A stretch of 64,000 bases of DNA from Eutreptiella sp. 'Long Island Sound 2002' (taxonomy: Eukaryota > Euglenozoa > Euglenophyceae > Eutreptiales > Eutreptiaceae). A model generated the notes under the pieces. The model saw only the letters and a program-made list of their open reading frames with translations. It searched no databases and was not told the origin of the DNA. Position 1 is the first letter of the stretch; every line of letters begins with the position of its first letter. A program made the translations under genes and the position numbers. Positions 1 to 63,300 of the stretch are shown here, piece after piece. The stretch spans positions 103,421,367-103,485,366 of the forward strand of contig OZ038381.1 of assembly GCA_964036045.1 (NCBI GenBank), in the 5' to 3' direction.

Positions 1-1
1 G

Positions 2-2124
2 GATAGCGAGGAGGAAGACCCCCATGGGAGGCGGGAACCCAAAAGGCGGCGGAAGGCGCAAGGGTCGCAGGAGGACGACGACACCCAACAGGGAGGTGGT
101 TCGGGTCAACAATGGGTTGGAACAATACGGCGTTTCGATTGACTCCGTGGGGACCCATGTCAAGCTCTGCCTCAGGAACAACGTCCACGCAAAGAAGCAA
201 TTGGCGGCCGCACTGAGATTGCTGCTGGAGGTCCCCAACAACCTGCTGAGGTGGCACTTCTTTCTGCGCAGCGAGTACATCCCCGCGCCGACGAAAGTGG
301 TGTCCACGCCCCGCACCGAAGCCTACAAGTACAAGGATTATTCAGGTTTGCACTTTCTGCGTCAACTGCATAAAATAACACGAACTGATCAGACCGACCG
401 GACCGAACCGTTCATTTCACTTCGTGTAAAGACCGGACCGGACCGGTCTGGACCGGTCTTTGAACAAACTGCATAAAATGCGCTAAACTGCGCGGTCCGA
501 CCGGTTCGACCAGTTTACACCCTTTTGTGTTGTTTTTCTGCAGAGGACCTCTTGCGCAACATCGCGAAGTGCCGAGGATGTGGGGTGAAGCAAGAACCCC
601 GGGAACCCGACTACGACCCCTACTCCCCGCCGCGCCACTCCAGCCCCTCCCGCTCACTCTGATCCAACCCCCGTCGCAAACCCGTGACCGGCGCAACCGG
701 CGCCCCCCGTCCCCATCAGTCCCCAGCGAAGCGGTTGCTCGACCTCCTCACGCCCCCGCTGGAGGATCTGTCGACTGCGGACGTGCGGAACCGGTACAAG
801 TTGCTGCGCTGTGAGCTTTGTCGGACGGAGCATGAGATTACACAGGTCAACAATTGTTCCCCCCACCCCTTCGACTTGTCTTGTTCCGTTCGTTGTCTTA
901 ACCCTTTATGCCCATAGGTCCGTCAAGGGGAGCTGCCGGATGCCAGCTGGGAGGAAACGTTGGAGAGCACCCGTACCACTGACGAGCTTTTGGCGGAGAT
1001 CCAGTCGATCCCGTGGTTCGCCCGGCAATGGGAAAGAATGGAGGAAGCAAAGCATCAATGGGCCTTGGAAGAGGTCTGTTTTTGCAGTTCCTCGCAGTTT
1101 GCGCTGTTTGTTCGAAGACCGGTCCAGACCGGTCTTTGTGTCAACTGAAACGAACTGCGCGGTCCGATCGGTTCGATCGGTTTATGCTGTTTGTACAAGA
1201 CCGGTCCAGACCGGTCTCTGTGCCAAGTGAAATGAACTGTCCGGTCCGATCGTTTCGTGCAGTTTGTGTAGTTTGACCCATTTCGTTGTTTGTCTCACAG
1301 GCCGAAAGAGAGAGGCAAGAGGCGGAGCGGGCGCGCCAAGAGGAAGAGGCGCGCGAGGCGGCCGAGGAGGCGGACCGGCTGATGTGCGACCGGGCAGAGG
1401 AGTTGGAGCGCATGAAGCGGGAGCAGCAACGGCTGCAAGATGAGTTGGACGCCTTGAAGAAGGCGAAGGTTTGTTGCCATGTTGCGGAGTTGTGGTTTTC
1501 ATTTCATGGGCCAACATTACGTTGTCAATGTACAACATCACACCGCAGGTGCGAGCCGCCAGCTCAGGCAATGGAGGAAAGACGGAGGTAAAAGAAGAGG
1601 AGAAGGAAGAAGCCCTCACAGAAGAAGAAGAAGGCCAGCCAGGCCTGCAAGAAGAGGAAATTGAGGAAAACGAGGAAATCGACCCGGAAACCGACCCCGA
1701 GGCCAAGCCACAGGTGTGAACTGCATCAACTGCATAAACTGCTCGAAATGCTCGGACCGGCCCGTTTAGATCGTTTTAAGCGGTTTGTTCAAGGACCGGT
1801 CCGGACCGGTCTGTACCGGTCTTCTCGTAAACTGAAACGAACCGCGCGGTCCGGCAAGTTCGTGCAGTTCGTGCAGTTCGTTGCATTTTTCCCCAGGCCG
1901 AGGACGCAAGCACTCAGGGGTTGCAGCTGCAAGTTGCCTCTGTGCGCGGGTACACGAAGAATGGGTCCGCTAAGGTCAACCCCATGTTCCTGTAGAAGCA
2001 AAGGCAAATGGAGGCCAAGCTACAAGCTAAGTTGGATGCTAAGAAAAAGCCCGATGATGATTCCTGGCCGGGTCAGGGTGGTGGTGATGCTGGCCTCGGC
2101 TCTGATGTCCCAGGCACAGCCTAA
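2..2124 (+). CDS. Spliced accessory gene of P1, unknown function, 5' end outside the window
   Basis: Likely exons are up to 345, 544-855, 918-1073, 1301-1468, 1549-1713 and 1897-2124, all joined in frame at GT..AG introns. The start lies upstream of the window or is disturbed near position 100, where a charged frame (starting DSEEEDPHGRR) must join the main frame. The product contains a possible Cys pair (CRGCG and CELC), a long Glu/Arg-rich coiled-coil exon (1301-1468), an acidic exon (1549-1713) and a Lys/Gln-rich tail ending at TAA 2122-2124. Two in-frame stops interrupt it: TGA at 660-662, where CGA would fit, and TAG at 1993-1995, inside a Gln-rich context (FL-stop-KQRQME). The family is not recognised. 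A transposition or chromatin helper is only an inference from its position beside the transposase. Confidence 0.55.
346..543 (+). repeat. ACCGGTC-rich intron 1 of the P1 accessory gene
   Basis: A GT..CTGCAG intron that keeps phase (exon ends with G, next begins AG). It contains GACCGGACCGGTCTGGACC-type words and CTGCATAAA words shared with the other P1 introns. The same words also lie outside genes in P1, so the motif is not purely an intron feature. Confidence 0.7.
1074..1300 (+). repeat. ACCGGTC-rich intron 3 of the P1 accessory gene
   Basis: A GT..TCACAG intron with two tandem copies of the P1 motif block (AAGACCGGTCCAGACCGGTC), each followed by a CGGTCCGATCG segment. Removing it joins two exons in one frame. 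Confidence 0.7.
1714..1896 (+). repeat. ACCGGTC-rich intron 5 of the P1 accessory gene
   Basis: A GT..CCCCAG intron. Its core (about 1793-1866) is nearly identical to 2474-2550 in the intron before the transposase, including GGACCGGTCCGGACCGG and CGCGCGGTCCGGCAAG. The two introns therefore share a recent common copy or have been homogenised. Confidence 0.7.
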
Positions 2125-2604
2125 AGCGCCCCGGACCACTTTTCCATGGTGTTGCCGTGGTGAGCCATGCCGGTGGTGGTGTTCGCTTCTCCAATACTTT
2201 CTTCAAACATTGGGACCGTCTCACGTTGTTTGTTCGACGAATTGCAACAACGCCCAGTGCATGCGACCTTCTCATTGACAGTTTGTGAGGAAGAGGCCAC
2301 CCCCTGCCCCTCCATTCCCCCCCCCCCCGTCCCAAAGAAATAGAAATAGAAATAAAAATAGAAAGTAGCCAAGGGGGGGACAAAAAGGTAAAGAATAGGA
2401 AAAATCAACAAGCAGCGTAAACTGCGTAAACTGCTCGGACCGGACAGTTTAGATGAGTTGATGCAGTTTGTCCAAGGACCGGTCCGGACCGGTCTGTACC
2501 GGTCTTCTCGTAAACTGAAACGAACCGCGCGGTCCGGCAAGTTCGTGCAGTTTGTGCAGTTTGCGCAGCAAATTTCCTTTTCCCTCTTCTGCAGTCAAAT
2601 CACT
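2125..2604 (+). promoter_or_regulatory. Spacer and probable 5'-UTR intron ahead of the piggyBac transposase
   Basis: No coding sequence is seen. It contains a C-run (2320-2332), an A-rich GAAATA tract (2336-2365) and, from about 2405 to 2594, a P1-type ACCGGTC block. That block ends in TTCTGCAG ten bases before the transposase ATG, so it is probably a 5'-UTR intron. The block nearly duplicates the intron at 1714-1896. Confidence 0.5.
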
Positions 2605-8379: not shown

Positions 8380-8752
8380 CCCTGCGTGCGCGCAATGGTG
8401 CATTTTTTCCATAGTGCGCGCAAATTTTGAAAAATATGACCTTTGTAGCGCGCCTATTGCGCGCGCTCTACCGCGCTATATTGTCCCGTTTTTCAAATTT
8501 TTCAAAACCGGAAAATGTTTCAAAACCATGCTTTTTCCAGTGTCCTGTGTTTCTCAAAAACCCCTTGCTTTTCAAAAATGTTCCTTGTTGCTCACCCAAC
8601 CCGAGACACATGCAAAAACACTTTCTGAAAGGTCTGCAAAGTGTGCAACAGTACAGGTCCTCATGGGCGCCAACAGTGTAGCGCGCGCAACATATTTACA
8701 GCGCGCGCTATGGACCTTACGGCGCGCGCTATACCAGGTATAGCGCGCGCTG
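8380..8752. repeat. T1 left TIR and subterminal region
   Basis: Non-coding. It contains the TIR, GCGCGCAAATTTTGAAAA, and toward the gene a cluster of TAGCGCGCGCAAC, CAGCGCGCGCTATGG and TATAGCGCGCGCTGTC words (about 8676-8755). The same block is found at 23393-23760 and 24276-24650 in T2. Confidence 0.75.
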
Positions 8753-11700
8753 TCATTTAGTGATCTCCTTAATGGTTTGGACCACCACTTCGGCCTCCCA
8801 CTCCTTCTCCCATTCGGGTCTGTGGTCTTCTGCCCCAGCGGCAGCTGGGGCTTCGTCCCCTTCTATTTGTGGGCTTGGGTCGCCTTCTGGGGTTGCTCCT
8901 TCTGGTGCCTCTTCTTCTTTCGGGGCTGCTCCTTCTCCTTCTTGTGGCGCTGCCGCTGGTGCCTCTTCTTCTTGTGGTGGGGCTGGTGCGTCGTCTTCTT
9001 GTGTAGCTGCTGCTCCGGCTGGTGCCTGTTCTTCTTGTGCAGCTACTGCTGGTGCTTCTGCTTGTGCTGCAGCTTCGGCAGGTCCCTCGTCTTCTTGTGG
9101 GGGGGCTGTTGGCTGGGCTATTGGGTCTCTTTGGGGATGCTTCTTCTTTGGGGTTGGTGGCTTAGACGGGGACATCCTCATGCTCTTTGGGTCGGGGCAG
9201 AGGTCCTCAATCTCATCGGTCTCGTACGTCTCCCACCACGACTGCCACTTGTCCAACTCCTCATGCGCTCTGCTTTTGGCGGAGAACACCTGGCAGCTGG
9301 GCATGAACTCCGACCAGTCGTCCTCTTCCTCCTCCTCCTCCCCTTGTTGGCTGGGGCTCCACTGATCGTTGGGGATGATGACGGCCACGTGGTCCTGAGG
9401 GGCCCTCCTGGCCCCTGCTGGCTTGATTTCGGCTCCCTCCACAATCATCGGCGCGATCGCAGTGGTGCAGTAGATGATCCACCGAGGCTTGTAGCCGTCT
9501 TTGTAGGACCAATCTCGGCGCTGCATGAGCTCATCTCTTGCCTCCTTGTCCGCGTCGGCTCTGCTCTGCTGCTTGGCCTTGGGAGCCGTACTGGGTGGGG
9601 TGGAACCGCACGGACCTCTTTGTTCTTGTGGCTGGTTTGGGACTGGGACAGGCTGCTTCGGTGCTGGCTTTGATGCGAGCTGCGGCTGGGGTGCCTGCTG
9701 CGGTGCCGTCTTGCTTGCCTGGAAAGAGTAGCGCAGAGGCATAGCACAGGCATAGCACGCGCAATACGGGGCATAGCACGCGCGACGAAATGCATAGCAC
9801 GTGCAATGACACCGATAGCGCGCGCTGCATTACCTTTTCTGCTTTCTCCTCCTCTGCTTTCTTCCGTTTCTTCTCCTCCTCTTCCTTCTCCTTCTTCTTC
9901 CTCCTCTCTTCCTCTTCCTTCTCCTTCTTCTTCCTCTTTTCCTCCTCTTCCTTCTCCTTCTTCTTCCTCTTTTCCTCCTCTTCCTTCTTCTTCTTCTTTG
10001 CTTCGTCCTCTTTCTTCTTGGCCTGTTCCGCGTGACGTTGGACTCTCTGTGCCGCCTGTGCCATCAGCTGCTGGTCGGCGGTCTTCTGGGCAAGGACCTT
10101 GCCAGGCGGGTGGGGGGGCTTAGCGGTGTGGGAGGCGGAGATGGCTGGTGGTAGGTGGCTGGTGGCTGCTGGCTCCTCGGTACGCTTCTTCTTCGGCCTT
10201 GGGACTGTCACGGATTCCGTCTCCGGCACAGCAAAGGCGTCGGCCCAGTCTACCTCCAGCTCCTCCATCTGCCGCTTAGCTCGGGCCAGCACCGGGGAGG
10301 GGCCTTGCTCCTTCCGTCCATCAAGCCAGTCGGCCGCATGCTTGGACTGCCTGGCAATGTCCGCGGGCACGCTGATCATCAACGGCCCTCTGCGGGATCC
10401 CAGGCACAGGAGCTGCTCGAAGGTGCCAACCTACGTGACAATGGGACAGAAGGTGGGGCCGTTGCGCGCGCAAACAATCAAATGTCGCGTGCTACAGCAA
10501 ATGAAGCGCGCGCAACAATGTCGAAAGCGCGCGCAATGGCAAACATAGCGCGTACCTGTGCCTGTGCCTGTTGTTGTTGTTGTTGTTGCTGTTGCTGGGC
10601 CATCTGCACCCGCTGCTGCTGCTGGAGCAGCTGCAGTGTTGCCTGCTGCACGGCTGCCTGCTGTTGGAGCTGCTGCTGCTGCACTTGCTACTGCTGCGGC
10701 TGCTCGTGGTCCTTGACCGCCGTGGTTTTGACTTTGGCGCCGGTTGCAAGTGCCCTTGCGGCACTGGCTCCTTTCTTGGCTGACCCCCGCAGCAAACTGG
10801 CACCCGCACTTCTCACCGAGGCACACTCGTTCTTGAAGGCCATTGCCCCCGCGTCGGTCGCGTTGATGAAGCTCGGTGGGTCCTTGTTGAAGTAGAAGTG
10901 GTGGACGGTCTTTGCGGTGGCACCCGGAGGCGTGTGGGTCCGAATGTGACCCCACCTGTAACTTGCCCAGCACGAGAACAGCAGCTCGTACTCCTCCACC
11001 TTGCAGTGTCCACATGCAGCTTGTCCTTCTTGGGTTGGCACGGAGGGGTTCAACAGGTTCGCCAGACTGCACCAGTGGCCAGTAATGCTCTCGTCATGCC
11101 AGCACGGTTGCACGGCTCTGTCTGGGATTTTGGCAATCGCCGTGGCCCTTTGGCGCCAGAACTTGTAGAAGGCCACCTCGAAGAGGTAGGCCGGTGTCAC
11201 GTCCTTCAGCCATGCCCAGTCGGGCCCTTGGGCGCAGATGGTGGGATGCAGTGTTCTAGGGCGTGGTGCGGAAGCCGCCCAATTTTGGGTGTTGTTAATA
11301 TGGTTGGAACCCGGAATTTCACATGTTACATGGGTGCACTATGATGCAACAATGTGCCTTCCATGTTTCGTTTGCTCGATATTGCCCGTTTTGCACTTTT
11401 TGCGATTTGATCTTTGTGTGCTCTAACTAGTTAGAACGGGGTTAGAACGGGGTTAGAGCACTAGTTATCGCGTGGGTTATCGCGCGATAACCTGGTTATC
11501 GCGGGGGTTATTGCGGGGGTTATCGCGCGATAACTAGTTATCGCGCGAGTTATCGCGTAGGTTATCGCGCTTCATTTTATGTTTCCCCTTTTCGCTTTAG
11601 CTCTCAAAGCTTTCATATTCTTTGTAATGGCCCTTGCTGCTGCCCACGCTTGATGCGAGCACCATCAAAAGCTCCTTGGGGTCCTTCGCCTTGGCGGTCC

Positions 11701-14700
11701 TGAGGGGCTTACGATGGGTGATGCCAATGTGAGGCGCCCTGTGCCGACCCGCTTTGAACATGGTGTGGACTTTGGACTCCTTGTCCATAAGTCCCCCTTC
11801 ATGGCGGACAAGCGAGACCCCCTGGTTCTCAGCAACTACATCTTCGAGTTGCTAGAGGTAAATCCAGGGGTTGCTGGATTTTTGATCCAGCTTCATACCG
11901 AGGATGTGGACGCGGTGGTGGAGTCCGTCACCGCTCATGCCGAGAAGGGTGCGGGGACGAAGACGACCCTCTATGTGGGTCAGGAGGAGGAGGAGGAGGA
12001 AGTGGAGGAGGAGGAGGAGGATGCGGGGGGGGTGGGGGCTGGGGGGAGGAAGGAGAAGCCCCACAACCCCCTCATGATTAGTGTCCAGAAGGTAAGGGTG
12101 AGACGTGGTAAGGGGAAGGGGAAGTCGGATGGTTGGTTTCCCCAACCCCCCACCCCGAAAACAAGCTCCCCATGCACTCCCTTTGCCCCACAAGGGAGTG
12201 GTAGCGTGAGTGGTATGGGGTCACCACTCCCAACATTATTTCGGGGCAGGGGGTGATTCTTTTTCCATTTGGGGCAACCCCCCCCCTTATTGGGGAGGCG
12301 GAGGAGGTGGTTGCCGCCGAGCCCTTGGGGGCCTTTAATAGGGACCCCGATGACCTTGTGCTCACGGTGGGGGGAAAGCTGGTGGTCAACCACCTCCTGG
12401 AACACGATTTTTTGAGTGACATTCAGCTGCAAAGTCTTTTGGATGATTTGGATAGGGTGCCTCTCTCACAGAAGGCACCCATTTTCAATGAAAACCCCCC
12501 CATTGTCGGCAGGCCCCAAGATTCTGAGACCCGCCGCACATTGTATGGCAACTATGCGGGTGCCAACCACCACAAGCACAACCCCCACAAGTTCCATGAT
12601 CTGCCAGTCCGCAAAAGGGTGGCAGATCGTGTGCTTGAGACCGCGAAGAAGACTGTGGTGGGGGGGGTCGGATGGAGCTGCACCATCCTTGACATGGCCG
12701 AAATTTCGAGCTATGACCACACCCCCCAGCGCCCCCCCCTACACCATTCCTGAAGGCACATTGTCAATTGCCTTATTATGCTAACCCATAATCATGAGGA
12801 GGAGGATGGGTCACATTTTCTTTTTGTGCCCTCCAGCAGCTCGGGGTTCCCTGACCCTTGGGTGGAGAGGGCTGTGCCATTCAAGAGGGGCACTGCCTTT
12901 TTTTTTGATGCCCTTGATGTCCACAGGGGGTCGGGGATTCCCAAGGCCTCCCCCATGGGGGTAAGGGACCCCCGCCTCATGGCATTTTTTGCCATTGAGC
13001 TTACCCAAGGGGGGAATCTTCGATTCCCCAACCTGCACGTGACGCAGTCCATTAAAAGGCCCCAGCTGGGGGCACCTGGTGGCCGGGTGGCCAGGAAAGT
13101 CCAGTGTGATGGGGCGGTTAGGTGTACGGGGAAGGTGGTAGCCAATTGCTACGGATGCAATCGGCTGATTTTGTGCACCGCCCACAAAGATGGCCTTTGT
13201 GTGCCATGCCAGGAGGGGGAGGAGGTGGAGGGGGGGGAGGAGGAGGTGGTGGTGGTGGACCCCAATGGGGTCAGCATTGAGCAATCTGCTGAGTGCTTGC
13301 TCCCGGTGGGAACAACCACAGGGCATTTTTTGTTGTCGGGGTGGGAGATTGGGAGGGAGGTGATTGCCCCCCTCACTAATGAGGAGGCGGGGGCGGTCCC
13401 AGCCACCCCGAACAGTGCCCGTTGGCCAAGGTGTGCCATGGGGAGGCACTGCCCTGGCCCACCTTGCAAGGGCATGTTGGGATTAAGGTGCCGGCGGGCA
13501 CCATTTTGGTGGTGAGGAGGGGGTTGTATGGGGGAGTGGCAAGGGTGTCCCCTAAGGTGCAGGGGGTGGCCCAGGTGGTGGAGTGGCGGCAGGTGGGGGA
13601 GTATGCGGTCATCACGGACTTCGTGTGGCTGCGGAGGCTGGGCCTGGTGCTGGACGACGCCAAGAAGGAGGGCCAAGGCATGTGTCCATGTCACCAGGTG
13701 TGAAAACTTCCCACAACACCCTGCTCTAACCCCTGCTCTAACTAGTTATCGCGCTAGGTTATCGCGTTCTAACTAGGTGCTCTAACTAGTTATCGCGCTA
13801 GGTTATCGCGTTGTAACTAGTCATCGCGGGGTCATCGCGGGGGGTTATCGCGGGGGTTATCGCGCGATAACCTAGTTATCGCGGGGGTTATCGCGCGGGT
13901 TATCGCGTGTTTTTTTTTGTTTCTTTTGTTTTTTTCAGGCTACCATCTTGCAGCTGCCCCGTATCTTCGTCAAGGACGACGCCCAGGCAGCCGAGGCAGC
14001 AGGCGGAGCAGCAGAAGCAGCAGGGGCACGGCCCGCCAAGCCGGTGGTGGCCCGGTTGGAGCTGGAGGGGGAGAAGAGGCTGCCGGAGGGGGCGTCGTGG
14101 CGGTGGGGGGAGCCTGGGGATGAGGCCTGCAGGATGGGGGGGACGGGATGGTACCGGCAGGTCACCATCACCGAGAAGGAGGGGGGGGTGGAGAGGAAGA
14201 CCAACCTCACCCTCCCCTCCTATGTGTGGGTTGGGGGGGAAACGGCCAAGTGGCCGAATGCCGCAGAGGGGGAAACGGTTGCGGCTTTTTTGTGTTTGTT
14301 TGGGATGAGCGACCCCCCCCAAAGGAAATCTTATCTCCTTTTGAGGGTGTGTTTTTTGTGGGAGGGGGAGTATACGGGGAGGGAAGTGTGGCAGAAGCTG
14401 CACAGGGGGGGGGGGCATCCACCTGGTTGGTGGGTATGACCCCCCCCCTTCTGTGGTGGACGCCACTGCCGATTGGGTTCGGCAGTATGCACCCAAGGGG
14501 GGAAGGCCGGGAAAAGGCCAGACGAAGCGGGGACCAGACGTGGTGGTGGTTGAGCCGGATGCCCCCCCCCCCCTTAGGGGTAAGGGCTAAACCCCCGCCC
14601 CCAAGCCCTCCCCCAAGCCATGGAAGGTGGCAAAGGTGGCGGCGGCCCAGCCCCCCCATGAGGCCCTGGACGTGGAGGCCTTGGGGGCCAGTGTGGCCAC

Positions 14701-19003: not shown

Positions 19004-19199
19004 GGGCAAGAGGGTTACATTAAAGTACCCTTGTTCCAGCAGTAATACAAAAAGGAAAATGCAGTAACAAAAAATTCGAAAACACCAAAAAAAAGGACAG
19101 AAAAGGAACAAATCTCTGTGTCTGTCAATGCATTTCAAATTGGAGGCACATTTGAAGTGCGTAGTCATAGCACGCTACTTCCAATTATATATCGCGATT

Positions 19200-21205: not shown

Positions 21206-21287
21206 AGCGCGCGCTATGACGCGCGCTATAGTTTTGTAGTGCGCACTGAGCCATTGCGCGGCAATACCCTGTAGCGCGCACGCAGGG

Positions 21288-27800: not shown

Positions 27801-28091
27801 GGGCAAGAGGGTTACATTAAAGTACCCCTGTTCCAGCAGCAATACAAAAAGGAAAATGCAGTAACAAAAAAATCGAAAACACCAAAAAAACGGACAGAAA
27901 AGGAACAAATCTCTGTGTCTGTCAATGCATTTCAAATTGGAGGCACATTTGAAGTGCGTAGTCATAGCACGCTACTTCCAATTATATATCGCGATTTCAA
28001 GGGTTCCGGCGCTTGAAAACAGCATAGCGGGCGCGATGGTGGTCATGGCGCGCACTAGATAGCACGTAGCGCGCGCTAGAAAACAAATAGC

Positions 28092-43380: not shown

Positions 43381-43599
43381 CATCTGTACGTTTCTCGCCG
43401 GAGGCGCGCTTTTGTGGCCCACGGTGTTGCACGTAAGGTTTTGAAAACGCGTAGAGCGCGCACAACGCGTACAACACGTACAGACCAAGTAACACGCACA
43501 GAACGCGTAGCACGCCGAACACGTGGCTCCAGAGGCACGTGCAAAATTGAAATACCGGAACGCGCAGAACGCGCAGAACGCGCAGCACGTCGGTTTGCA

Positions 43600-44352: not shown

Positions 44353-44923
44353 CTGCGGGCAAACCACACATTCGTCAACATCAGTGGCAGTTCCAGAGGC
44401 AACAGCAGAGGCAGCATGGGCGGAACGTGCAGAACGCGCAGCACACGCAGAACGCGTAACACGACCTCCAGAGGCAGACACAGAAGGAGACACGTAGAGC
44501 GCGTATCACACGAAACACACGCAGGACACGGGCTGCGGGGACGTGGGCAAAGGGCCATGGGGATGGGGCAATGGGGGCGGTAGCAGGAACAATTCAATTG
44601 TTGCTTTCTTGAAACACTGTCCGTGCACGCAAAGCAGCGGCCGCAGCCGCCAACATTCATCCGAACGTTGAAAAAGCATTCACAACGCAATAAACACCGG
44701 CGTCGGTGCCCCAATGGAAGCGCCGCCTACCGATGTTACCACTGTGGGGTTGGCTGTGAGTGTGCTTGCTGGGCCAACGGCAATGGCCTTGAAAACAAAA
44801 GGGGTTGTGAGGTTTGTCTGCCGCGGACCTCATCGGGACGGGGCCACTCATCCCCATCCGAAAACTGTGTGTTTGAAAATATGCTGCCTGGGCTGCTCCA
44901 ACTTAGGTCGGACCGATTTACTA
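44353..44923. repeat. P2 intron/spacer region with ACGCG and CCAGAGGCA words
   Basis: 44390-44530 carries CCAGAGGCAACAGCAGAGG and GCGCAGCACACGCAGAACGCG words (an intron on the minus strand). 44640-44900 is a conserved stretch shared, inverted, with 62400-62660 that may be the 3' UTR or last exon of the accessory gene; two frames are similarly conserved, so I leave it uncalled. Confidence 0.45.
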
Positions 44924-47690: not shown

Positions 47691-48715
47691 TGCAGGCATG
47701 GCTCCTGCACCATAAAAGCAGAGCGGCCTAGGAATGTTGAGGCAAAAACATGCTGCAGAGCACGTAGCACGCGTACAACGGCTCCAGAGGCAACGTCAGA
47801 AGCGAAAAATGACAACACACAAAACACCCAACGCACGTGGGCAGCGTAGCACCAAGGCAAAGGCATAGGCAAAAGGCAATTGTCGTTCGAACACGCTCGT
47901 TTGAGTTCCATTGGGAACCAGTGCAGGTGTGTGGCAGAGTACACGGGTGCAAGCATGGCAAAAAAAAAATCGGGTGTGGTATGATAGGTGTGAAGCAATT
48001 AGCCCCTGCAGAACGCGTAGAACGCGTAGGAAGACTTCCAGAGGCAGACTCAAAGGCACCAGACCGAAACACGCAGGACGCGCAACACACGCAGCACGCG
48101 TAGCACCAAGACAGAGGCAGAGGCAGGAGGCAATTGTGCTTCTCTCCTCAAAACTGGTTGAATTGAGCTAAACGGATAGTTCCATTGCGTCGGGCACCCT
48201 CGAAAACCCCCCGGAAGCACAAAACAATGATAAAAGCAAAAACGCGAGAAAGTTTCGTGCTATGCGTTCTACGCGTGGTAGCCAAAGGAATATACAGTAT
48301 CCCGCTCAAGTGGGAGCCACATGGGGACGTAGTGACCTGGGGGGGAGTGCTCGATTCGCTGTCCCGCGCCCCTTGCACTGTTTGGCTCCGACACACTGAG
48401 TGTGATGCGCAAAGGGGCACTCCTGTGGCTCGCCGACATTTGGTCAGTTGAGTGTATCCGGTGGGTAGATAAGTCCTCGCCGAATGCACGGACAGTCTGG
48501 CGCTCCTTGGTGCCGGCGATTTTCTGCAAGTCCCTGTGGTATGCGTGGTCCAGGACCGACGTCCTGCTGAACCTGCGTTCCTTGGTGTGGGGCTTAATGG
48601 CTAGGGGGTATCCTTTGGCCTGGTGGAAGCCAGCTTTTCGCCGGTGCTGGGAGAAGTTCAGGCTGTGCAGAATTTTTCCACTGTCGCAGCTACATGCATG
48701 AATAAAACAAGGCAC
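47691..48715. pseudogene. P2 copy 1 left segment and short plus-strand coding remnant
   Basis: 47700-48290 is the segment that appears in opposite orientation at 57780-58408 (minus-strand exon HVFASTFLGRSAFMVQEP plus P2 introns). 48290-48712 on the plus strand encodes LKWEPHGDVVTW and, after a frame change, DKSSPNARTVWRSLVPAIF and NLRSLVWG. These match plus-strand text at 58854-59135 (LKWEPHDNVA, SPNAREVLRSTFPSLL, NVRSLVWG). The conservation shows that the plus strand is the real coding strand. Function unknown. Confidence 0.45.
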
Positions 48716-51669: not shown

Positions 51670-51856
51670 CTTTCAGACTGTCCTGTGACACGTACGTGTT
51701 GGCAGTGCAACGTGTACGCGTTGGGTGCGCGGCGCGTACGTGTTGGTGTTTCGACACGTACGCGTTAGTAACTTAACACGTACGCGTCAGCTCACCAACG
51801 CGTACGTGTTAGATTACCGACGCGTACGTGTTGATCTGCTGGTGCGTACGCATGTA
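51670..51856. repeat. Array of AACGCGTACGTGTT-type palindromes, target of T5
   Basis: Contains about eight units of the form ACGTGTACGCGTTGG, CACGTACGCGTTAG, CAACGCGTACGTGTTAG. The array continues for a few units beyond T5 (56182-56215, TTCGTACGCACC and CTACGTGTTACG), so T5 inserted into it. No gene of a matching element is seen nearby; it may be the end of an undescribed seventh family. Confidence 0.7.
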
Positions 51857-52238
51857 CCCTTCGTGAACCGGCCGTTTGAATCCGAGATTCACGGTACCGT
51901 GAATTTCACCCAATTTTGCTGCGTTTTGCTCGTAACTTGGTGCTATCGTGTGCTTTTCTCGGGCTACCTTCGTCCAAAGTAAGATCCAACAAATATGTGC
52001 AATTTAGAGGTTTGAAGTCCCCGCATGGTTCAACACATTTGGTGAAATTCGCGTGAATTTGAAATTCACGCACCCAGATTCAAGCAAAAATTCACGGTAG
52101 ATTCACATGTTCACGACAATATGAAATTCGCACGATTTTGGTACGAATGTCGTACGAATTTCGCACGAATTTACCCTCATTTCCACTGTTTGCCTTTCTC
52201 ACAACTCTCAAAGCCTTTCTTCGCATTCTCTTTTGACA

Positions 52239-54146
52239 ATGACCCAGCAAACTATGTCGCGGCTCGCCAGCCTGGCCTCTGGCCCCGACCCCGCAGCCGA
52301 CACCCTCGCCCATTACCAAGCCCTCCCCGTCGCCCACCATCAATTGGAGGAGGCGACGTACCAGCCGGGGGAACTGGGGGTGGATCATGTTGTGGGTTGG
52401 GCAGCATCCCTCGACCCCTCCCCCGATGTCATCCACATCGACATGCGCAGCCCCACCCGCAACTCCTACCTTGGGGGGAGGGAATGGGCCACAACCTTGT
52501 GGAGGGAACTGCGCCGCCAACTCCCCTCCCTTAAATTTCTGCATCTAACCCCTCTCCCCTCCAGTGTTGACCAGCTCCTCAATTCCATGCGCACTAACCC
52601 TGTGGGGAAGCCTAAGGACGCCCACGTCCAGGTGTACCCCACCACCAACCTCGTCCATACCCCCGCCCACTGCGATATGGTGTGCCTACAAGATCTTGCT
52701 GCAAGTGCACCGGCAGACCATTCTTTTTGCCCCTTTTCTTGGCACCTTGCCGACCCCCGGTGGCGGGATGATTTGGGCATTGCCCCTTTCCATCCCACCA
52801 TCCCCCCCCAGGTGCACATCCCCGACGTCACCCACCCCACCTTCTACAGCACAACTTCTTTGCAATGGTACCGTGGTGCCTCATGCGCCCCCCCCTTCAC
52901 TTCAAGTGAACCCCCCCTCCGCACCGAACCCCTTCCCGACCCCCCTCATGGGGTGATGGGCAGCCTTGACCCCGCCCCCGACAGGGTTGGCCCCTCCCAG
53001 CTGCCCCTCAACTTTGTTGATGGGAACGGCTACATTGTGCTTCGGGGGCTTGTGGAAGCACGGGATTGTGAGGTGGGGTGGAACAAGGTGATGAAGGCGT
53101 GGGGGAGCTGCGACAAAAAAGTCATCGCAAAAAATTTTGAGCTCTTTTTGAACGCTGCGCGTAGTGAGGATGAGGCGAAGCATCCAGAGCCCCGGCGTTG
53201 GCAAAGCAAGAGCAACTTGGGTTCGGGGGTGGGGGGGCCTCTCTTCAAGAAGTTCCAGCCCCACCTCACTGAAAGTGTCCCTGGGGTTGGGGACCTCCAC
53301 CCAATGACGCCAGGCAGCGTCATTGTGGCGAGTGTGGGGAGTGGGCCGCAGCTCTCCCACACCGACGTCGCCACCCACCCCGAGGTGCTCCCCCCCAACA
53401 GCAGGGACATCTCGGGGTGCCACCGGAGTAGCTCCCTCTGCTTGTGAGAGGACTACCAGGTGGCGGTGCAGGCGGGGACGGCCCTGGGGGAGGCGGGGGA
53501 GGCGCGCTGGGACACCGTTGAGCTGCATTGGGGGGACATGCTGCTGATGGTGGCCACCAGCCGCCACCATGGGTTGCCCGCCCTCCCCGACTCCAAGGAT
53601 GGGCTGCACTGGGCTCTTTTTCACTTGTGGACCCCCGACCCCCGACACAAACACCAACAGCCCAACACCACACACCTGGACGCCACCCCCCCCAAGGAGG
53701 CCCTGGACTTTGCTGGGGATTTGTCCAGCTGGAACTTCCCCAGCGTGTTGTGGGTGGGGAAGGGGGCGGTTGGGAGGGTGGGGTTGTTGGAGGGGGATGC
53801 TGCCCACGCCCTCTTCGCCGACCCCCCCGAGTCGGTCCCGGCAGGCCCCCCCACCTGCCCCTTCCACCCCACCTTCCTCTCCCGGTCGGCCCCGGCCTCC
53901 GACCTCGCCGTCATCGAGGTCGGCGAGCAGTGCACGCTGTTCTTCGTGGGCAGCGTGCACCAGCTGGAGGTATGCGAGGGGGACAATGTCGATGCGGAGT
54001 CGGAGATCCACTTCGCCATGACCGGCATTGCCCCCCCCGAGCGGCCGACCACGCCGTGGCATCTGGTGAACACGGTCCCAACGTGGCGGTTGCCCAAGTG
54101 CGCGAAGACGGGGGCATGGAGCATCACATGCCCACGTGAGTGCAAG
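52239..54146 (+). pseudogene. T5 gene A, exon 1: oxygenase-like protein
   Basis: Open from ATG 52239 to TGA 53445-53447 (T4 has TCA at the matching codon), and in the same frame onward to the donor at 54146. It contains DGNGYIVLRGLVEARDCEVG, PGSVIVASVGSGPQLSHTDV with an intact H-x-D, then GDMLLMVATSRHHGLPAL (distal His) and LFHLWTPDPRH (Arg). This is the best preserved version of the non-TET oxygenase core in the window (phytanoyl-hydroxylase-like DSBH arrangement). The rest of gene A (exon 2 with coiled coil) is deleted. Confidence 0.6.
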
Positions 54147-54235
54147 GTGTGCTTGCTTGTGTGTTTGCTTTGTTTATTGGCAAATGGGACGAAATTCACG
54201 TGAAATTCGTACGAAATTCGTACCTAGTGGGTTCG

Positions 54236-55742
54236 GTACCTAGTGGGGAGCATGACGTACGGTGTGGTATGGGACTAGGTTTACAACATGCTTCGGCAGC
54301 TAGCGTTGCCGGAGTCCCGGGCGTTCACTGCCTATACGGGTGACGACACGGCCATCAATGGTGCGGCCTGCTACCTACCTGACCGCATCGGCCACCTATT
54401 CAAGTGTCGACCACCCCCACCCTCGGACATCATGCAGCCCGGGGACCGACGGCTGCATTGGTTGCCTATTGCGGTGGACGGTACATCGAGGCATGAGGCC
54501 TCGTAAGTCCATTGCACGCTTGGTGGCACCACCAGCCCCAACCAACTATCTAGTTGGTGGCTACTAGGGGGCAGTGAAAAGTGGGAGACCCTCTACGCGG
54601 CCTCCCAAGAAATTGATTTTGATGATGAGTTGCGCAAGGCCGCAACCGTAAGTTTTGAGGATACGGGAGGGAACGATAGGCAGTCCCTTTTTTTTCTGTG
54701 TGCAGATGGTAAAGCACAGGTGCTCATGGCGGGCTGCCAAAACTGGAAGGCAGAATCCCCTGGTGCCACTGTGTGTTGGGTCTGCATGCGTAACCGTGCT
54801 CTGTGCCTTGCTACCTTTGGCACAGCAAGTGCGATAGACGGCAACTGGGAACCGGCCGTTGCCATAAATGCTATATATAGGACCATCACGAGTGATAGGC
54901 GAGTGCCTGATTATGGCCTCCATGGGGTCCTTCGTGTCCTGTTGTATGCAATCAACGGGACACGGGACCTAGTTGTACAATTGACAGGGAAGGCACCGGC
55001 CAATGTGGCACGCACCATGCTGCAACCGGTTCTAGATGAGGCACGGCTTGCTGCACGAACTTGCACCCGTGCCTCATTAAATAATGACCAGGCAAACAGC
55101 AAGGGGAAGGTGAGGATGGAGTGTGCTGCTGCCATCCATTTCATGCGGAATAGGGGTTGGGAGAAGATAATAGATGCTTGCCTAGAGCAGCCTAGTGTGA
55201 GGCAGCATCAAGTAGGGGGAAAAAGTTGGGAGTCGGTGTGCAAAATGTGGTGGGATAATTTTGCAAGCATGTGTGTATACGCGTGGCATTCCGCATGGTT
55301 CTCCGGGGCCGACTTGGGGCGGCTCCGGAACCATAGCATAGCCATGGGCGCTGCCCACAATGAGCTCCAGTGGGGCAAACTTCTGTGGACGCATCTTTGG
55401 AGCGACCACATGTATTATTTTGCAAAGAAGTGGAGAATCTTGTCAAAGTTCTCCTGCTTTGCCATGGAGGGAAGTCACCGGAGGCTGAAGCGCATGTTGC
55501 GCAACAGCGGGGGCCTAAGCCTCCTCCGGGGGAGACTAGGGGTGCAAGTGGTTGTGGACAACCACACCATTGACGATAGCCTTTGGTTGCATGGGTGGGA
55601 TGCGACCAAAAAGGCTCAACATGGGCAAGGGCCCATAAGTGTACAAACGTATGCAAGCCGCACAAGAAGACGGCTTCTAACCGACATGCAGCACCTTCAG
55701 ACTCTACAGCGGCGGTTCCGGTGCCGCAAGAGACGGACATGA
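54236..55742 (+). pseudogene. T5 transposase, N-terminally deleted, two in-frame stops
   Basis: Corresponds to T4 39531-41035 with very high similarity. The first 85 or so codons are gone. TAG 54276-54278 replaces CAG of T4 (39569-39571) and TAA 54504-54506 replaces TAC (39797-39799). The final 370 codons are open. One change near the Glu helix gives LWSDHMYY in place of IWIDHMYY. Probably inactive, but it could be mobilised by T4. Confidence 0.75.
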
Positions 55743-56189
55743 GATCACCTTACAAACCCAGACCATTGTTGCGTGTCACCGGGGTGCATGCTGGGGGGCC
55801 TACTAGGGGTGTGAGGACAAATCAGGGGGTGCAAACCGGTATCATTTGTATAAATTCACGTCAATTCACGTGAAATTCGTACGAAATTCGTGCGAATTTC
55901 GTACAAATTCACGTGAATTCACGGCTCCGAATCAGCTACAGGCTTGCCGGGTTTCGGCACCTCTGGTTTTGGGCACGGTTTGGACACAATGGATGCTTTT
56001 GGGGCGGGACTTTCATTGGATGATGCTTGACAAAGCTGGGGGAGGAATTTTGGCCCCTCAAAGCCCTCGGAATGAACCAAGAATATGGCATTTCCCCCCG
56101 AAAACCTCAAAATTTGGGTAAATTCACGTGAAATTCACGCAATTATTCAAACGGCCACTTAACGGCCGTTCACGAAGGGTACACAGTTC

Positions 56190-57724: not shown

Positions 57725-58349
57725 CATGTTGTGCGGACAATCTGTAGGTTTGTAGATTCCTGTGTTATGTTGCATGAGCACTCTCGGGGTGCTACATATT
57801 CCTTTGGCTACCACGCGTGGAATGCATATCACGAAATTTTCTCGCGTTTTTTCCTTTTATCATTGTTTTGTGCTTCCGGGGGGTTTTCGAGGGTGCCCGA
57901 CGCAATGGAACTATCCGTTTAGCTCAGTTCAACCACTTTTGAGGAGAGAAGCTCAATTGCCTCCTGCCTTTGCCTTTGTCTTGGTGCTACGCATGCTGCG
58001 TGTGTTGCGCGTCCTGCGCGTTTCGGTCCGGTGCCTCTGAGTCTGCCTCTGGAAGTCTTCCTACGCGTTCTACGCGTTTTGCAGGGGCTAATTGCTTCAC
58101 ACCTATCATTCAGCACCTGATTTTTGTTTTTTGGTGTTTTTTTGCCATGCTTGCACCCGTGTACTCTGCCACGCACTTGCACTGGTTCCCAATGGAACTG
58201 AAACGTGCGTATTCAAATAACCATTGCCTCCCGCCTATGCCTTTGCCTTGGTGCTACACTGCCCACGTGTGTTGGGTGTTTTGTGTGTTGTCATTTTTCG
58301 CTTCTGACGTTGCCTCTGGAGCCGTTGCACGCGTGCTACGTGCTCTGCA

Positions 58350-59135
58350 GCATGTTTTTGCCACACCATTGTTAGGCCGCTCTGCTTTTGTGGTGCACGA
58401 GCCATGCCTCGTCAGGTTTGAAGGGATGTGGGCACATTGGGACAGTGCGTTTGCCCCGGACAAAGCAAAAGAACACGTCAACACGTGTCCGGCGGCAGGG
58501 TTCTGGGCGCCAGGTGAACAGCCAACTGCGTGGGTATCCGTTGCAGGGCTCGAAGTGCCTATACTATATACCACAGCATGGGACGGAGCAGCGCTGGGCA
58601 GGCCCGAGTCCATTTTGCGTTTCTCTCCCAAGCGAGACAAGAGGCTACTCAGGGATTTTTTCAGCCAGTTTACGCTGGCAGATTTTGTGATCCATGAAGT
58701 CTTCTCTCCACCCCGTCACACAACGTGCCCCATCCCATGTGTCCTTGTAGCCCGCTTCAAAGACAACGTGCCCATGGCGTTTGTACATGTGCAGCACGTA
58801 TGTTTGAAAATCTGAAAACTGTTCTTTCTACATTCTTGCACTCACTGTACAATGTAAAGTTGAAGTGGGAACCGCATGACAACGTGGCCTAGCTATGTGA
58901 GTGCGAGTTTGACAGCTCAGGGCCTTATTTCCTGCTGCGAAAAGGCGTAGTACGCAGCCTGCAGTCAGCACTGAGGCCTGATTTTGAGTGGCAGCCTTGG
59001 CTGCCTGTGACCTCACCAAATGCCAGAGAGGTGCTGCGGTCGACCTTCCCCTCCCTCCTACACAAGAGTCTTCTGTACTGTTGTAGCAGCCAAGGCCTGA
59101 TTGCAAATGTTAGATCCCTGGTCTGGGGTGCGGGA
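58350..59135 (+). pseudogene. Plus-strand gene remnant of P2 copy 2, unknown function
   Basis: After an acceptor TCTGCAG at 58350, an exon of about 150 codons (HVFATPLLGRSAFVVHEP.. to FKDNVPMAFVHVQH) ends at a donor near 58798. A second exon from 58860 reads LKWEPHDNVA, TAG (58890-58892), LCECEFDSSGPYFLLRKG, SPNAREVLRSTFPSLL, NVRSLVWG. The second exon matches 48290-48712. No known domain. It could be the central part of the P2 transposase or a second accessory gene. Confidence 0.4.
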
Positions 59136-59147
59136 TGGCACTGCTAC

Positions 59148-61720
59148 CATGCAACTCACCTTCAGAGGCAAGCCGAGAGGCAGCAAAACGAACACGTGTG
59201 GAATGCGCAGAACGCGGAGAACACGGGGCCTACATCCAGAGGCACAACCGGAGGCTACGTGCTAATCCCCTGGAACGCATAGTACTAATGTGCAACGCGC
59301 ACCTGTGCACCCTCCGTGTGCGGGGGTCCCATCTCCGGCCCCATCTCCGGCCTGCCTTGCTGCTCCCCGGACTCTGGCGGTGGTGGTGGTGGTGGCTGAG
59401 GTCCCCGCGGTAGTGGCGCTGGTGGGAGTAGTGGCGGTGGCGGTGGCGGCAGCGTGGGTTGCGGTGGAGGATAGGTGGGTGGCGGCGGGTACGCGGGGGG
59501 CTGGTACTTGTACGGGTCAGACCCATACGGGAGGCTCCCGGAGCTCGAAGGCATTTCGGGATCCGACTTCATCGGCTGGTACTCGTACCGCAGCTCATAC
59601 TCGTACCGCGGCTCATACCGATACCTATACTGCTGCGGCCACTCCTCCCAGCTTGTCTGCAGAACATGTAGAGCGCGCAAAACAGCTAAAACATGGGAAG
59701 GCAAATGCAGAGGCAGTCACACAATCGAACGTGCAGACCGCGTAGAACGGGTAGGACGCGCAAAGCAAACAGGAGGCAACTCTAGAGGCAAGTGGAAAGA
59801 CTCGTGCCACACCGCCCAGCACAGGAATGCACACCCGCTGCCTCTTTGCATTCTTCGTCGTCACGAGTGTCCATGCCCCTGTGTCGGGCAGGTCGACACC
59901 TCTGTCCTCCGTTAGGGTGTAGGCCATGAGGCGAGCCATGCGGACCGTGCGCGACAGTTTCTCCTGTACAGACCACGCAAAGCGCGTGCAACACCGCAAG
60001 GCACCCCCAGAGGCAACGAAGAGGCGCAACATCGGGAACACGTAGCACGCGCAGAACGCGAAAAACGCGCTACACGCTGGACCGGAGGCGTTAGAGAGGG
60101 AACACGCAACACATGCAGTACACCTGCAAAGCGTCAGTGGGCATGTCGACAATGTCCTCCGCACCGAACGCACTGGGTTGGTCCATGCTGCGCCGTGGTT
60201 GGTATCCTGACGAAAGGGGCTCCCCCTTCAATTTTGCCAACGGCCGGCCTGCAGCTGCGGGGTCACCAAAGTCCGTAGGCCAGTCCAGTGGCTCCGACAT
60301 AGTTCGTCCACACGGACACCCCCTTGATTAACCCAGTTGCGACTTGGCGGGGTGAGCTGCTGCGGTATCGCTCCTCAATCAGTTCTCTGGCAACGGCCGT
60401 GCTTTGTGCATTTTTCGTGCCATGTCGGAGGACCATCTGCACACTGTACGCCCGCACGTCAATCACCAGAAGCAGCGCCAGGCCCAATTTGCGGCGGGCT
60501 TGTATTTCCTCGGCCAAACACACTTTGTAGTGTTGGCATACTCGTCCGAGTGACACTTCGTACTCCGATTCCAGGGTGCGCTGCATGGCCTGCACATCGT
60601 TGTCGTAGGCGGCCCCGGCTTGGTACTTCTCCCCTCGGCTTGCACCTGTGGGCATCTTCCTGCGCGGTTCGCCTTCCACTGTGTAATGCACATGCTTGGG
60701 CTTCTCCTCCACTTTCCCCTTGCCCTTGCTCTTCTTCTTGGGTGGACTCTTTGCCTTTTCTTTCTTCTTCTTGGACAGCTCCTGCGGCTCTAGCTTTGCC
60801 TCTGGCTTCGCCTTGACAGGGGTCCCCTTTGGTTGTGCTTGTGCGGCCATGCGGGCAACCTCCAGGTGGGTGCTGCGGGGGGCGCGTTGGGCGAGGGAGG
60901 GCTCGTCCTCGTCCTTCACACTGGCATCATCACTGCCCTCTTCGTCCTCCTCGTCCTCCTCCTCCTCAGCTGCCTCCTCTTCCGACTCCTCTTCCGACTC
61001 GTCCTCATCCGAACTCTCCGTGGTTGCGTCATCTTGGATCCACGTCCACAGCCGGTCGCGCGGAAACTGTAGAACATGCAGAACATGTAAGACACATTGA
61101 GGCAACCCCAGAGGCAACAACGGAGGCAACTGTCTGAAACGCGCAAAACGCCCGGAAAGCGCAAAACGCGTAGCACACAACCAGAGGCAGCTCCAGAGGC
61201 AACGAAAAAGGGAACGAATAAAACGCGGGGAACGCACAGGACACCTTTCTGTATTTCAAGAAGCCAACTTTCTTGTTCCGGACGTCTTGCACCACATGTG
61301 GCGCATGTGGCTTGCCCTTCGGGGCCTTCACCTGTAAAAGGGTGCAAGGGTAATTTGTAGAGGACAAAAGGCAGCGCGAAATAGTGCTCACAAGAAATAA
61401 CTAACCGCAAACCCGTGAACGTGGTACACCTGATACGTTGTGAGGTTTGTCAACCAAAATTCTTTGTCCTGCCGGTCCTTGGCCCCTTTCTTCTTCCGAT
61501 TGACCCATCCGGCATGCCACCCCGCTGCGACACAACGGCCTGAGGAGGACAACGGTGCAAGGCGAGAAGCGAGATGAAAACGAAGACACACACACATACT
61601 CGTGGCTTTTTTAATTTGAAAGACAACGAAGGCGTCGTGCTTCAGTTTCTCTGGATGCTTCCACTCTCCTAGCTTCCCACCCTTCTGCAACCATTGAGAA
61701 TGTGTGGCGGGGTACAGGGA
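59148..61720 (-). CDS. P2 copy 2 accessory gene, middle exons
   Basis: Direct copy of 45131-47687, with the same exons on the minus strand (61690 GGKLGEWKHPEKLKHDAFVV; 61340 VKAPKGKPHAPHVVQDVRN; 61061-60119 large exon; 59960 EKLSRTVRMARLMAYTLTED; 59660-59300 Tyr/Pro-rich exon). The large exon is open further than in copy 1 (60263-61237) and carries VCLAEEIQARRKLGLALLLV in frame. Its last exon is not downstream but on the opposite strand at 62195-62387, so this copy cannot make the complete protein. Confidence 0.55.
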
Positions 61721-62190
61721 ACTACTTCAGCAAAGCACAACAGGCACCAACTCCTCAGCCAAAAATCAATTGAACATGGTAGGGTCTGAAATAGGGTGCA
61801 TGTGTGTGCAGAAATTTGTCATGACATGCTCTGGTGTACACAAGCAGCAAATTTTTGGTGCTCCACTCCTCTTATTTCTACCCATCCCTTTCGCGGTGCT
61901 GTCACAAAAGCCTGCTTATATCATTTGTACTTAGGTGCATGCCATGGTGTTTGTGTGTTTCTGTAAACGGGCTTCGGGAGCTTAAAAAGTTACCCCGCAG
62001 GGTATGGTCACTGCCTGTCACCCTATCCCTCCCACTGGCCCCCACACTTTTTCTCCCGCAGAAGGTGGGGCTGTTGGGTCCTGCCTGCCTGTCGCCGGTC
62101 ACGCCACACGCCACGTGCATGTCCTATGACACGACACGACCCAACACATCATGTATCCTCTGCAACTCTGGTTTTGAATTCTTTCCCCGT
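61721..62190. other. Unique spacer inside P2 copy 2
   Basis: No gene recognised. It separates the direct and inverted segments of the second copy. It has low similarity to anything else in the window. Confidence 0.35.
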
Positions 62191-62194
62191 GTTC

Positions 62195-62387
62195 TGCAGC
62201 ACCCAATCAAAACAGAGCCGGAGGAGGAGTCAACTCCACCAGTGGATCCACCGCAGGAGCCGGAGGCAGCCGAGAAAGAGAGCGCTGGGGCGGCGAAGAG
62301 CGATGCGGAGATGGGAGAGCAGCCCCCAGAGGAAGCCGCAGCGGCGGGAGAGAAGATGGAGAAGGACGAGATAGTGCAGATTTAGTA
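62195..62387 (+). pseudogene. Detached last exon of the P2 accessory gene, inverted
   Basis: Follows an acceptor GTTCTGCAG and reads HPIKTEPEEESTPPVDPPQE to EKDEIVQI, then TAG TAA. It matches the last exon of copy 1 (45108-44924) but lies in opposite orientation to the rest of its gene. Confidence 0.65.
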
Positions 62388-63035
62388 AATCGGTCCGACC
62401 TAAGTTGCAGCAGCCCAGACAGCATATTTTCAAACACACAGTTTTCGGATGGGGATGGGCTTGGGGATGCGCATGGGGATGAGTGGCCTGACCCCGATGA
62501 GGTACGCGGCAGACAAACCTCACAACCCCTCTTCTTTTCAAGGCCATTGCCGTTGGCCCAGCAAGCACACTTACAGCCAATCCCACAGTGGTGGCATCGG
62601 CAGCCGGCGCTTCCATTGGGGCACCGCTGAACACGGTTTTTTTTGGACGCCTTTATTTATTGTGTTGTGAATACTTTTTCGACCTTCGGATGAATGGTGG
62701 CGGCTGCGACCGCTGCCTTGCGTAGACCATGCAGGGTGCACGGACGCCGTTTCAAAAAAGCAACAATCGAATTGTTCGTGCTGCCGCCCCCATTGACTCA
62801 TCCCCACGGCCCTTTGCCCAGCCCATGTTCCCGCAACGTGTCCTGTGTGTGTTTCGTGTCGTACGCGCTCTACGTGTCCACTTCTGCTTTTGCCTCTAGA
62901 GGTCGTGTTGCGCGTTCTGCGTGTGCTGCGCGTTCTGCGCGTTCCGCCCATGCTGCCTCTGCAGTTGCCTCTGGAAGTGCCACTGGTGTGTTGCGTGTTC
63001 TACCGAGTCCCATTTCTCAACAATCTTATTTTGTG

Positions 63036-63300
63036 ATGCCACCAAAATTTCAGCCACCGCTGTACGACCATAGGCTCCCACGGGAGGACCCTGCGGCCCA
63101 TATCCAGTACGGTATCCGGCCAGGGGAGTCCTGGCTCATCGGCTGTACTGAGGATGAGGTCCGGGACCATATCATGGCCCCCATAGAGAATCTACAATGC
63201 CAAGCCCTACGGGACGACGGAAGGCAAGACCTGATACCTCTAGTACCTAGGTACAATGCATTTCTAATTCTATTGGGGATGGTGCGACCCATGAGGGTGC
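63036..63300 (+). CDS. piggyBac-like transposase, N-terminal exon (P2 family)
   Basis: ATG 63036 (MPPKFQPPLYDHRLPRED). The part EDEVRDHIMAPIENLQCQ, DLIPLVPRYNAFLILLGMVRP aligns with YEYMMRPIMECMDICLRA, DLVPLLPRYILFRLGLGM of the P1 transposase (its residues 43-81). After about 63285 the similarity ends at GTGCCATTCC, which opens a CCCGCGTCCCCCC-rich stretch and may be an intron donor. The catalytic core is not in the window. Confidence 0.6.

Follow-up and report, generated by a model that had tools for sequence, protein, structure and literature searches.

Do the DNA transposons crowded into one stretch of a euglenophyte genome each label their own noncoding DNA with a private sequence word, and could such words be read by a protein that the element itself encodes? 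The question is raised by 64,000 bp from Eutreptiella sp. 'Long Island Sound 2002' (hereafter the window; C4:103421367-103485366 in a 2.28-Gb assembly of 2,205 contigs), which self-comparison resolves into nested DNA transposons that we call P1, P2a/P2b, T1/T2, T3, T4/T5 and T6. Our results show that the private-word pattern is real, strong and family-specific, the words being located near both element ends, in GT..AG introns and in spacers. The original prediction, made from the letters of the window, held that each element has its own short word, and every word it named is present in the window far above chance. The elements are the following:

P1: 1..4430, + strand, piggyBac-like, left end beyond the window; DDE_Tnp_1_7 match at E=4.5e-16; GT..AG introns.
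T1: 8380..21287, - strand, split by T3 (11242-18290); terminal inverted repeat (TIR) CCCTGCGTGCGCGC; 2-bp target-site duplication (TSD) AC.
T2: 24276..29804, - strand, second T1-family copy, with 93.6-95.2% identity to T1 in three pieces; no TSD seen.
T3: 11242..18290, + strand, nested inside T1; TIR TGGGATGCAG; ends read from sequence.
T4: 34602..41484, + strand; TIR TGTACCCTTCGTGAAC; 2-bp TSD AT.
T5: 51853..56183, + strand, second T4-family copy with an internal deletion; 2-bp TSD CA.
T6: 29807..31450, + strand, short, carrying the remnant of a transposase akin to that of T4 (E=1.7e-22); ends approximate.
P2a: 43401..48310, - strand, piggyBac-related (tblastx to P1, E=2e-18).
P2b: 57781..63010, no strand assigned, rearranged second P2 copy (tblastx to P1, E=3e-8).
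Array at 51.7 kb: 51691..51850, + strand, ACGCGTACGT-type, 22-bp period; its right edge adjoins T5.

Unsupervised counts of 8-mers and 9-mers returned a separate word for each element; the family words include TTCGTACGAA for T4, the half-site TTGGCGCG for T6, GACCGGTC for P1, CCAGAGGCA for P2, and AGCGCGCGC. Exact noncoding copies far exceeded the expectation of an order-1 model of the same DNA in T3 (35 vs 0.02), T4 (13 vs 0.00), T5 (2 vs 0.00), T6 (14 vs 0.08), P1 (11 vs 0.06), P2a (12 vs 0.00), T1 (22 vs 0.72) and T2 (22 vs 0.90), an enrichment which, where the model expects any copies, ranges from about 24-fold (T2) to more than 1000-fold (T3). Without preselection of words, the top 8-mer lay above the maximum of 60 order-2 simulations in 9/9 elements, and did not exceed it in three of five control regions (retroelement-like DNA, 48.3-51.7 kb and 56.2-57.6 kb). 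With words fixed and counted in their own family and elsewhere in the window, the matrix was nearly diagonal. The family specificity that had been claimed is strong for T3 (best word, 35 own and 0 elsewhere), T4+T5 (42 and 0), T6 (14 and 2) and P2 (45 and 6), moderate for the looser T1+T2 word (82 and 36), and weak for the bare ACCGGT of P1 (16 and 16), its longer form GACCGGTC giving 11 and 0. Among the other words, AAATTCGTACGAATTT has three copies, all in T4 and none in T5, TTCGTACGAA and TTCACGTGAA being the commoner words; AACGCGTACGTGTT occurs as a single exact copy in an array that is degenerate; and ACGCGT is scattered across the window, with 30 matches.

The clustering of the words in noncoding DNA, at ends and in introns and spacers, was likewise borne out. 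Out of 234 words within their own elements, 228 fall outside the coding models and six inside them (two in P1 and one each in T1, T2, P2a and P2b); the T4/T5 exon models, the only ones backed by homologous proteins, contain 0/42. The use of introns as word stores is supported for T1, T2, T3, T4, P1 and P2. A layout of four clusters is common to T3 and T4, with one at each end, one in an intron of the accessory gene and one upstream of the transposase gene:

T3 5' cluster: 11464..11569, + strand, 9 GTTATCGCG-type words, directly upstream of the accessory gene.
T3 intron cluster: 13745..13907, + strand, 10 words in a GT..AG intron at about 13691-13937.
T3 spacer cluster: 16033..16183, + strand, 11 words, upstream of the transposase gene.
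T3 3' cluster: 17979..18042, + strand, 5 words, pointing the opposite way from the 5' cluster.
T4 5' cluster: 34812..34940, + strand, TTCGTACGAA-type and AATTCACG words.
T4 intron cluster: 36975..37117, + strand.
T4 spacer cluster: 39020..39183, + strand, upstream of the transposase ATG.
T4 3' cluster: 41143..41224, + strand.
T6 clusters: 29961-30058 and 31303-31356, half-sites TTGGCGCG.

The main end clusters lie 222-319 bp from the left and 256-311 bp from the right end of T3, and 209-285 and 275-342 bp from those of T4, which has a few extra words nearer its ends, at 34647 and 41422-41440. In P1, GACCGGTC is placed in three introns, in the spacer before the transposase and in the 3' part, often 10 bp apart, and the P2a words CCAGAGGCA and AACGCG/CAGAACGC form repeats of 9-18 bp that are mostly intronic.

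The genome-wide motif count proposed as a check was carried out for the T3 16-mer palindrome and returned 5,029 sites, against 0 for the reversed control pattern. Among 50 sites examined, a non-random set from the head of contig C1, 48 have a neighbouring site no more than 7.5 kb away, and in 12 pairs the distance is exactly 43 bp, matching the window. At ten loci fetched by way of the T3 palindrome, a selection that tests placement and not density, 226/226 T3 words belong to noncoding parts of T3 copies, and full-length copies keep the four clusters (with 6, 11, 12 and 11 words in L005, and 6, 10, 8 and 11 in L006). Control DNA, a small sample of ten 10-kb stretches (100 kb) taken at round coordinates and with no element copies detected, contains 0 T3, 0 T4 (TTCGTACGAA) and 0 P2 words; the P1, T1 and T6 words occur there twice each. 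The T4-family accessory protein has 34 homologues, ten of them with a recognisable splice junction. Six of these ten, among them P0079 (50% identity), continue into EIRTKFVRNSYEF-like word peptides; four stop within a few residues at KFT or KFA, as from AAATTCACGTGA-like DNA, which is weak evidence. P0054 and P0066 are recognised through word peptides alone, and the remaining 22 homologues do not recognisably reach the intron.

The shape of the words is less uniform than had been proposed. In T3 the repeated unit is a 9-mer, GTTATCGCG, present in 25 forward and 10 reverse copies that form five overlapping head-to-head palindromes; T6 half-sites are inverted, with an offset of 4 or 6 in 6/7 pairs, and seven palindromic pairs occur in T1 and seven in T2. 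A CpG-centred palindrome, put forward as the shared core, fits P1, T1/T2 and T3, but the T4 word is TpA-centred, the T6 word and ACGCGT are GpC-centred, and the main P2 word, CCAGAGGCA(A), is not palindromic and contains no CpG. As a common feature it was therefore rejected. What the families have in common is CpG density, with an observed/expected ratio (o/e) of 1.16-2.94 in the clusters vs 0.43-0.87 in coding models, the control DNA standing at 0.68. Word spacings are 10 bp in P1, 11 in T4, 21 in T1/T2, 20/22 in T6, about 21-22 in the 51.7-kb array, 12 in T3 and 9/18 in P2, and five of these seven differ by no more than one base from one or two turns of the helix.

The transposases fall into at least two groups. 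The matches listed above place P1, P2a and P2b with piggyBac; the other relevant frames, with those of the accessory genes, are these:

T4 transposase (P0001): 39271..41034, + strand, without a Pfam family; carries the residues D, D, C(2)C, H(4)H, E.
T3 transposase, main frame: 16907..17908, + strand, kin of its T4 counterpart (E=6e-7 in blastp).
T4 accessory gene, exon 1: 35010..36927, + strand, frame broken; homologues keep H375, D377 and H445.
T3 second accessory frame (P0003): 15113..15748, + strand, 105 homologues, all listed from ENA.

For P0001, 43 homologues came to light. ENA supplied 41 of them, and the two from elsewhere are 33% and 41% identical; searches of genome contigs and of viral contigs gave no confirmed relatives. 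In the T4-family alignment (A1; 23 rows, gaps excluded) the two D residues are conserved in 22/22 and 21/22 rows, the two C in 20/22 each, the two H in 16/17 and 17/17, and E in 13/15. The T3 transposase has the C(2)C and, by eye, no H(4)H. No Pfam transposase matched any of the 23 T4-family members at E<=1 (0/23), there was no relevant PDB match, and the T4-family, T3 and T1 frames scanned gave no MULE Pfam match. A link between the T1 and T4 transposases was not made (hhalign E 0.04). CACTA/EnSpm TIRs begin CACTA/G, and a 2-bp TSD would be compatible with that group; the TIRs here start CCCTG (T1, T2), TGGGA (T3) and TGTAC (T4, T5), so that a CACTA/G start is absent from all five. The residue signature D, D, C(2)C, H(4)H, E is described for the CACTA-including CMCT clade (CACTA/EnSpm-Mirage-Chapaev-Transib; PMC12730594). 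The T4 transposases thus resemble this clade, and we do not file them there because no profile matches despite the DDE, C(2)C and H(4)H residues.

The accessory proteins are harder to place. In the T4/T5 alignment (A2) H375 is kept in 17/18 rows and D377 and H445 in 18/18 each; these candidate Fe(II)/2-oxoglutarate (Fe/2OG) residues, PHTD...RHHG, have a spacing that we take to be like that of Fe(II)/2OG oxygenases, and in the T4 copy of the window the D is, by eye, replaced by V. P0003 has a conserved H..H and a distal H/R, with HxH where T4/T5 has HxD, and is oxygenase-like by eye only. An oxygenase identity is a guess, because it is drawn from conserved residues, neither the T4/T5 protein nor P0003 has a Pfam or PDB match (Tet_JBP included), and the predicted structures are of low confidence and unusable, with a mean predicted local distance difference test score of 31.7 for A2 and 31.6 for the T3 P0003 alignment (A3). 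The T3 and T4 accessory frames share no detectable similarity (tblastn E of at least 1; hhalign E 0.4 and 0.55), which suggests that the would-be word-reading protein may have diverged as the word did, the T3 and T4 transposases being still related. The accessory stops of T4 and T5 differ (36120-36122 and 53445-53447), and P0048, representing a cluster of 193 sequences, is open across both. In P0081, another T4-family accessory homologue, the single open frame runs into a reverse transcriptase (PF00078), probably a nested insertion. The assembly itself holds a single Tet_JBP domain (L025, C2034:19243-19665, E=6.6e-18), in a host gene or possible contaminant.

How does this anatomy compare with known systems? 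Family-specific anti-silencing by way of short words is established for the VANDAL elements of Arabidopsis, which are MULEs. VANC21 is described as binding YAGTATTAY repeats of its own family, located in introns and in intergenic and terminal noncoding DNA (PMC5735166); VANDAL repeats are reported to diverge fast, and TnpA is linked there to Spm demethylation (PMC10398659), while coevolution of VANC and DNA is mentioned as unpublished work in PMC12859917. The elements studied here share with VANDALs the family-specific tandem words in introns, intergenic and terminal noncoding DNA, the occurrence of different words in related elements, and a transposase with a separate accessory gene (PMC5735166, PMC10398659), and the analogy drawn with VANDALs in the original prediction therefore fits the published anatomy (PMC5735166) in both word placement and family specificity. 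They differ in that their transposases are not assigned to MULE, those of the T4 family having CMCT-like residues instead, that the TSD is 2 bp, that no similarity to any known family was detected in their accessory proteins, and that most words contain CpG whereas the VANC21 word YAGTATTAY does not. En/Spm (CACTA) with TnpA offers a second likeness, in the CMCT-type transposase signature, the family-specific words near both ends and the diverged second protein; CACTA subterminal repeats are described as family-specific and partly palindromic, with diverged TNPA-like proteins as their presumed binders (PMC2613891). Unlike En/Spm, however, the arrays here also fill introns and spacers, and the TIRs do not start CACTA. 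A third comparison, with fungal DNA transposons carrying TET/JBP genes, is suggested by the accessory genes and the candidate Fe/2OG residues of the T4/T5 protein, but no accessory frame scanned here has a Pfam Tet_JBP match and the structure models are unusable. The anatomy, in short, matches that of VANDAL, and the transposase type resembles that of En/Spm. The terms 'subterminal' and 'CpG' do not occur in the main text of PMC12730594, and among the literature matches listed we noticed none describing arrays of this kind in non-plant transposons.

We consider it somewhat better than an even chance, with a probability of roughly 0.55, that the arrays serve the element for self-recognition and are read by one of its own proteins, VANC-like or TnpA-like. 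A protein encoded by the element would bind the words of its own family and mark that family only; binding would keep the family open and expressed against silencing, and would prepare the element ends for transposition. Introns and spacers would hold the words because a change of word there would be harmless to the protein. These odds follow mainly from the word-by-family matrix, the genome-wide count of the T3 palindrome and the 226/226 placement. The proposal that private noncoding words serve self-recognition, in which the binding, the binding protein and the anti-silencing outcome are what we infer rather than observe, also draws on the 100-kb control and the T4-family intron words. Self-recognition appears well supported by the anatomy; the step to anti-silencing is plausible, and, taken alone, anti-silencing as the outcome of word recognition has in our judgment rather less than an even chance.

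A number of observations weigh against self-recognition. The accessory frames are broken in both T4 and T5, and a scan of accessory frames, which left out several T1/T2 and P2 exons, detected no recognised DNA-binding domain. Tandem arrays can arise by slippage without function, two of the five control regions pass the top-8-mer test by one count (21.3-23.4 kb, 5 vs 4; satellite, 16 vs 15), and the coding models behind the placement counts were hand-drawn after the clusters were known. The idea of helical phasing is post hoc; the T3 (12) and P2 (9/18) spacings are off the helical turn, and in P1 the autocorrelation peaks at 9 and 5 come ahead of that at 10. An excess of TpG/CpA (o/e 1.06-1.52) with low CpG (o/e 0.43-0.88) in coding models and the other tabulated regions suggests CpG decay, but CpG transitions between copies are not clearly raised, the transition/transversion counts outside clusters being 118/77 at CpG vs 201/155 at the remaining C/G, and those inside 24/16 vs 45/28. 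With so little CpG-specific transition excess in the copy comparison and the two measures in disagreement, we rejected CpG decay as proof of 5-methylcytosine. Among word variants, CpG transitions account for 13/27 one-mismatch variants in T1, against about 2 of 8.5 expected, and no such trend is seen in T3 (1/4), T4 (2/8), T6 (1/5) or P1 (1/14). Comparison of copies pooled from T1/T2, T4/T5 and P2a/P2b shows motif bases diverging less than other noncoding bases (33/737 vs 251/3480; Fisher p=0.006; coding, 421/9484). When the window T3 is compared with eight of the ten fetched loci (L012 and L013 being excluded as scarcely homologous to T3), the figures are 59/1874 for motif bases vs 228/6639 for other noncoding bases (p=0.61), with a coding divergence of 656/24700, about 2.7%. 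Given p=0.006 in the one test and p=0.61 in the other, constraint on the words was rejected as established, and the evidence for selection on them is mixed.

Among other explanations, the words could be sites that a transposase or co-transposase must bind for excision, in the manner of CACTA subterminal repeats, the intron and spacer arrays being extra or a by-product unrelated to silencing. The T4-family D, D, C(2)C, H(4)H, E signature, shared with the CMCT clade as described in PMC12730594, fits such a role, as do the CACTA family-specific subterminal repeats thought to be bound by TNPA-like proteins (PMC2613891) and the position of the main end clusters of T3 and T4, which lie 200-340 bp in from either end. 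Yet the intron and spacer clusters equal or exceed those at the ends (in T3, 9 words at 5', 10 in the intron, 11 in the spacer and 5 at 3') and recur in other T3 copies, and the piggyBac-related P1 and P2, of a different superfamily, also keep intron and spacer words. We regard excision alone as unlikely, if a serious candidate. More ambitiously, each T-type element might encode its own oxygenase-like accessory protein, directed to that family alone by its private CpG-dense array and oxidising or protecting methylated CpGs there. Such a pairing of private word and fast-evolving enzyme for self-addressed demethylation would have arisen across several families of one genome, with a counterpart in piggyBac relatives; this is decidedly improbable.

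If the arrays were promoter or enhancer elements for host transcription factors, with a different factor captured by each family, one could understand why the 5' and spacer clusters of T3 and T4 stand directly upstream of the accessory and transposase genes. The 3' clusters, however, have no downstream gene inside the element, the T3, T4 and P2 words are absent from the 100 kb of control DNA (a small sample), and related elements have completely different words, which leaves host regulation with a slim chance. Equally slim is that of neutral tandem repeats formed by slippage in noncoding parts and inherited by descent: the young T3 copies do share their arrays by descent and the T3 test found no motif constraint, but local slippage does not explain one word at four separate places and in both orientations, the T4-family intron words are kept in homologues down to 50% identity, motif bases are less diverged in the pooled test, and three of the five control regions lack a word of this kind. 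Action in RNA, for example through intron or untranslated-region hairpins affecting splicing or RNA silencing, is barely credible, for although transcripts could fold through pairing of inverted half-sites, there are clusters near element ends and 5' of genes too, and the T3 words are mostly direct repeats (25/35 one way).

The remaining features of the window concern insertion history and neighbouring DNA. An empty site for T1 is found within the window at 49030-49060 (near 49043) and one for T3 inside T2 (27050-27090), the T3 TSD being GG, or GGT if the element start is shifted one base later. The T5 deletion (at about 54200-54240) is equivalent to T4 37005-39527, from the intron cluster to the 5' part of the transposase, with its breakpoint inside a word array. 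Between 4442 and 8140 a repeat of about 1.2 kb stands three times head-to-tail, with ends ACTACACCCCTCTCCC / GGGAGAGGGGTGTAG, internal 162-bp repeats and a top word without CpG. Retroelement-like DNA (31451-34601 and 41485-43400) is interrupted by T4 and includes a stretch that is GIY-YIG-like by eye, with no Pfam match above cut-off. A possible further private word, GTTACTC/GAGTAAC, with four GAGTAACA copies, lies at 49500-49790 and does not rise above simulations.

Six families with at least two transposase groups in one 2.28-Gb genome thus have an architecture similar to that of VANDALs, with words that differ between related elements. If the binding proposed here is true, labelling by private address words would be a general strategy among transposons, arrived at repeatedly, and several pairs of word and protein would become available for the study of coevolution between recognition and target. 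The arrays would also provide a clear test ground for the action of transposon-borne candidate oxygenases on chosen DNA.

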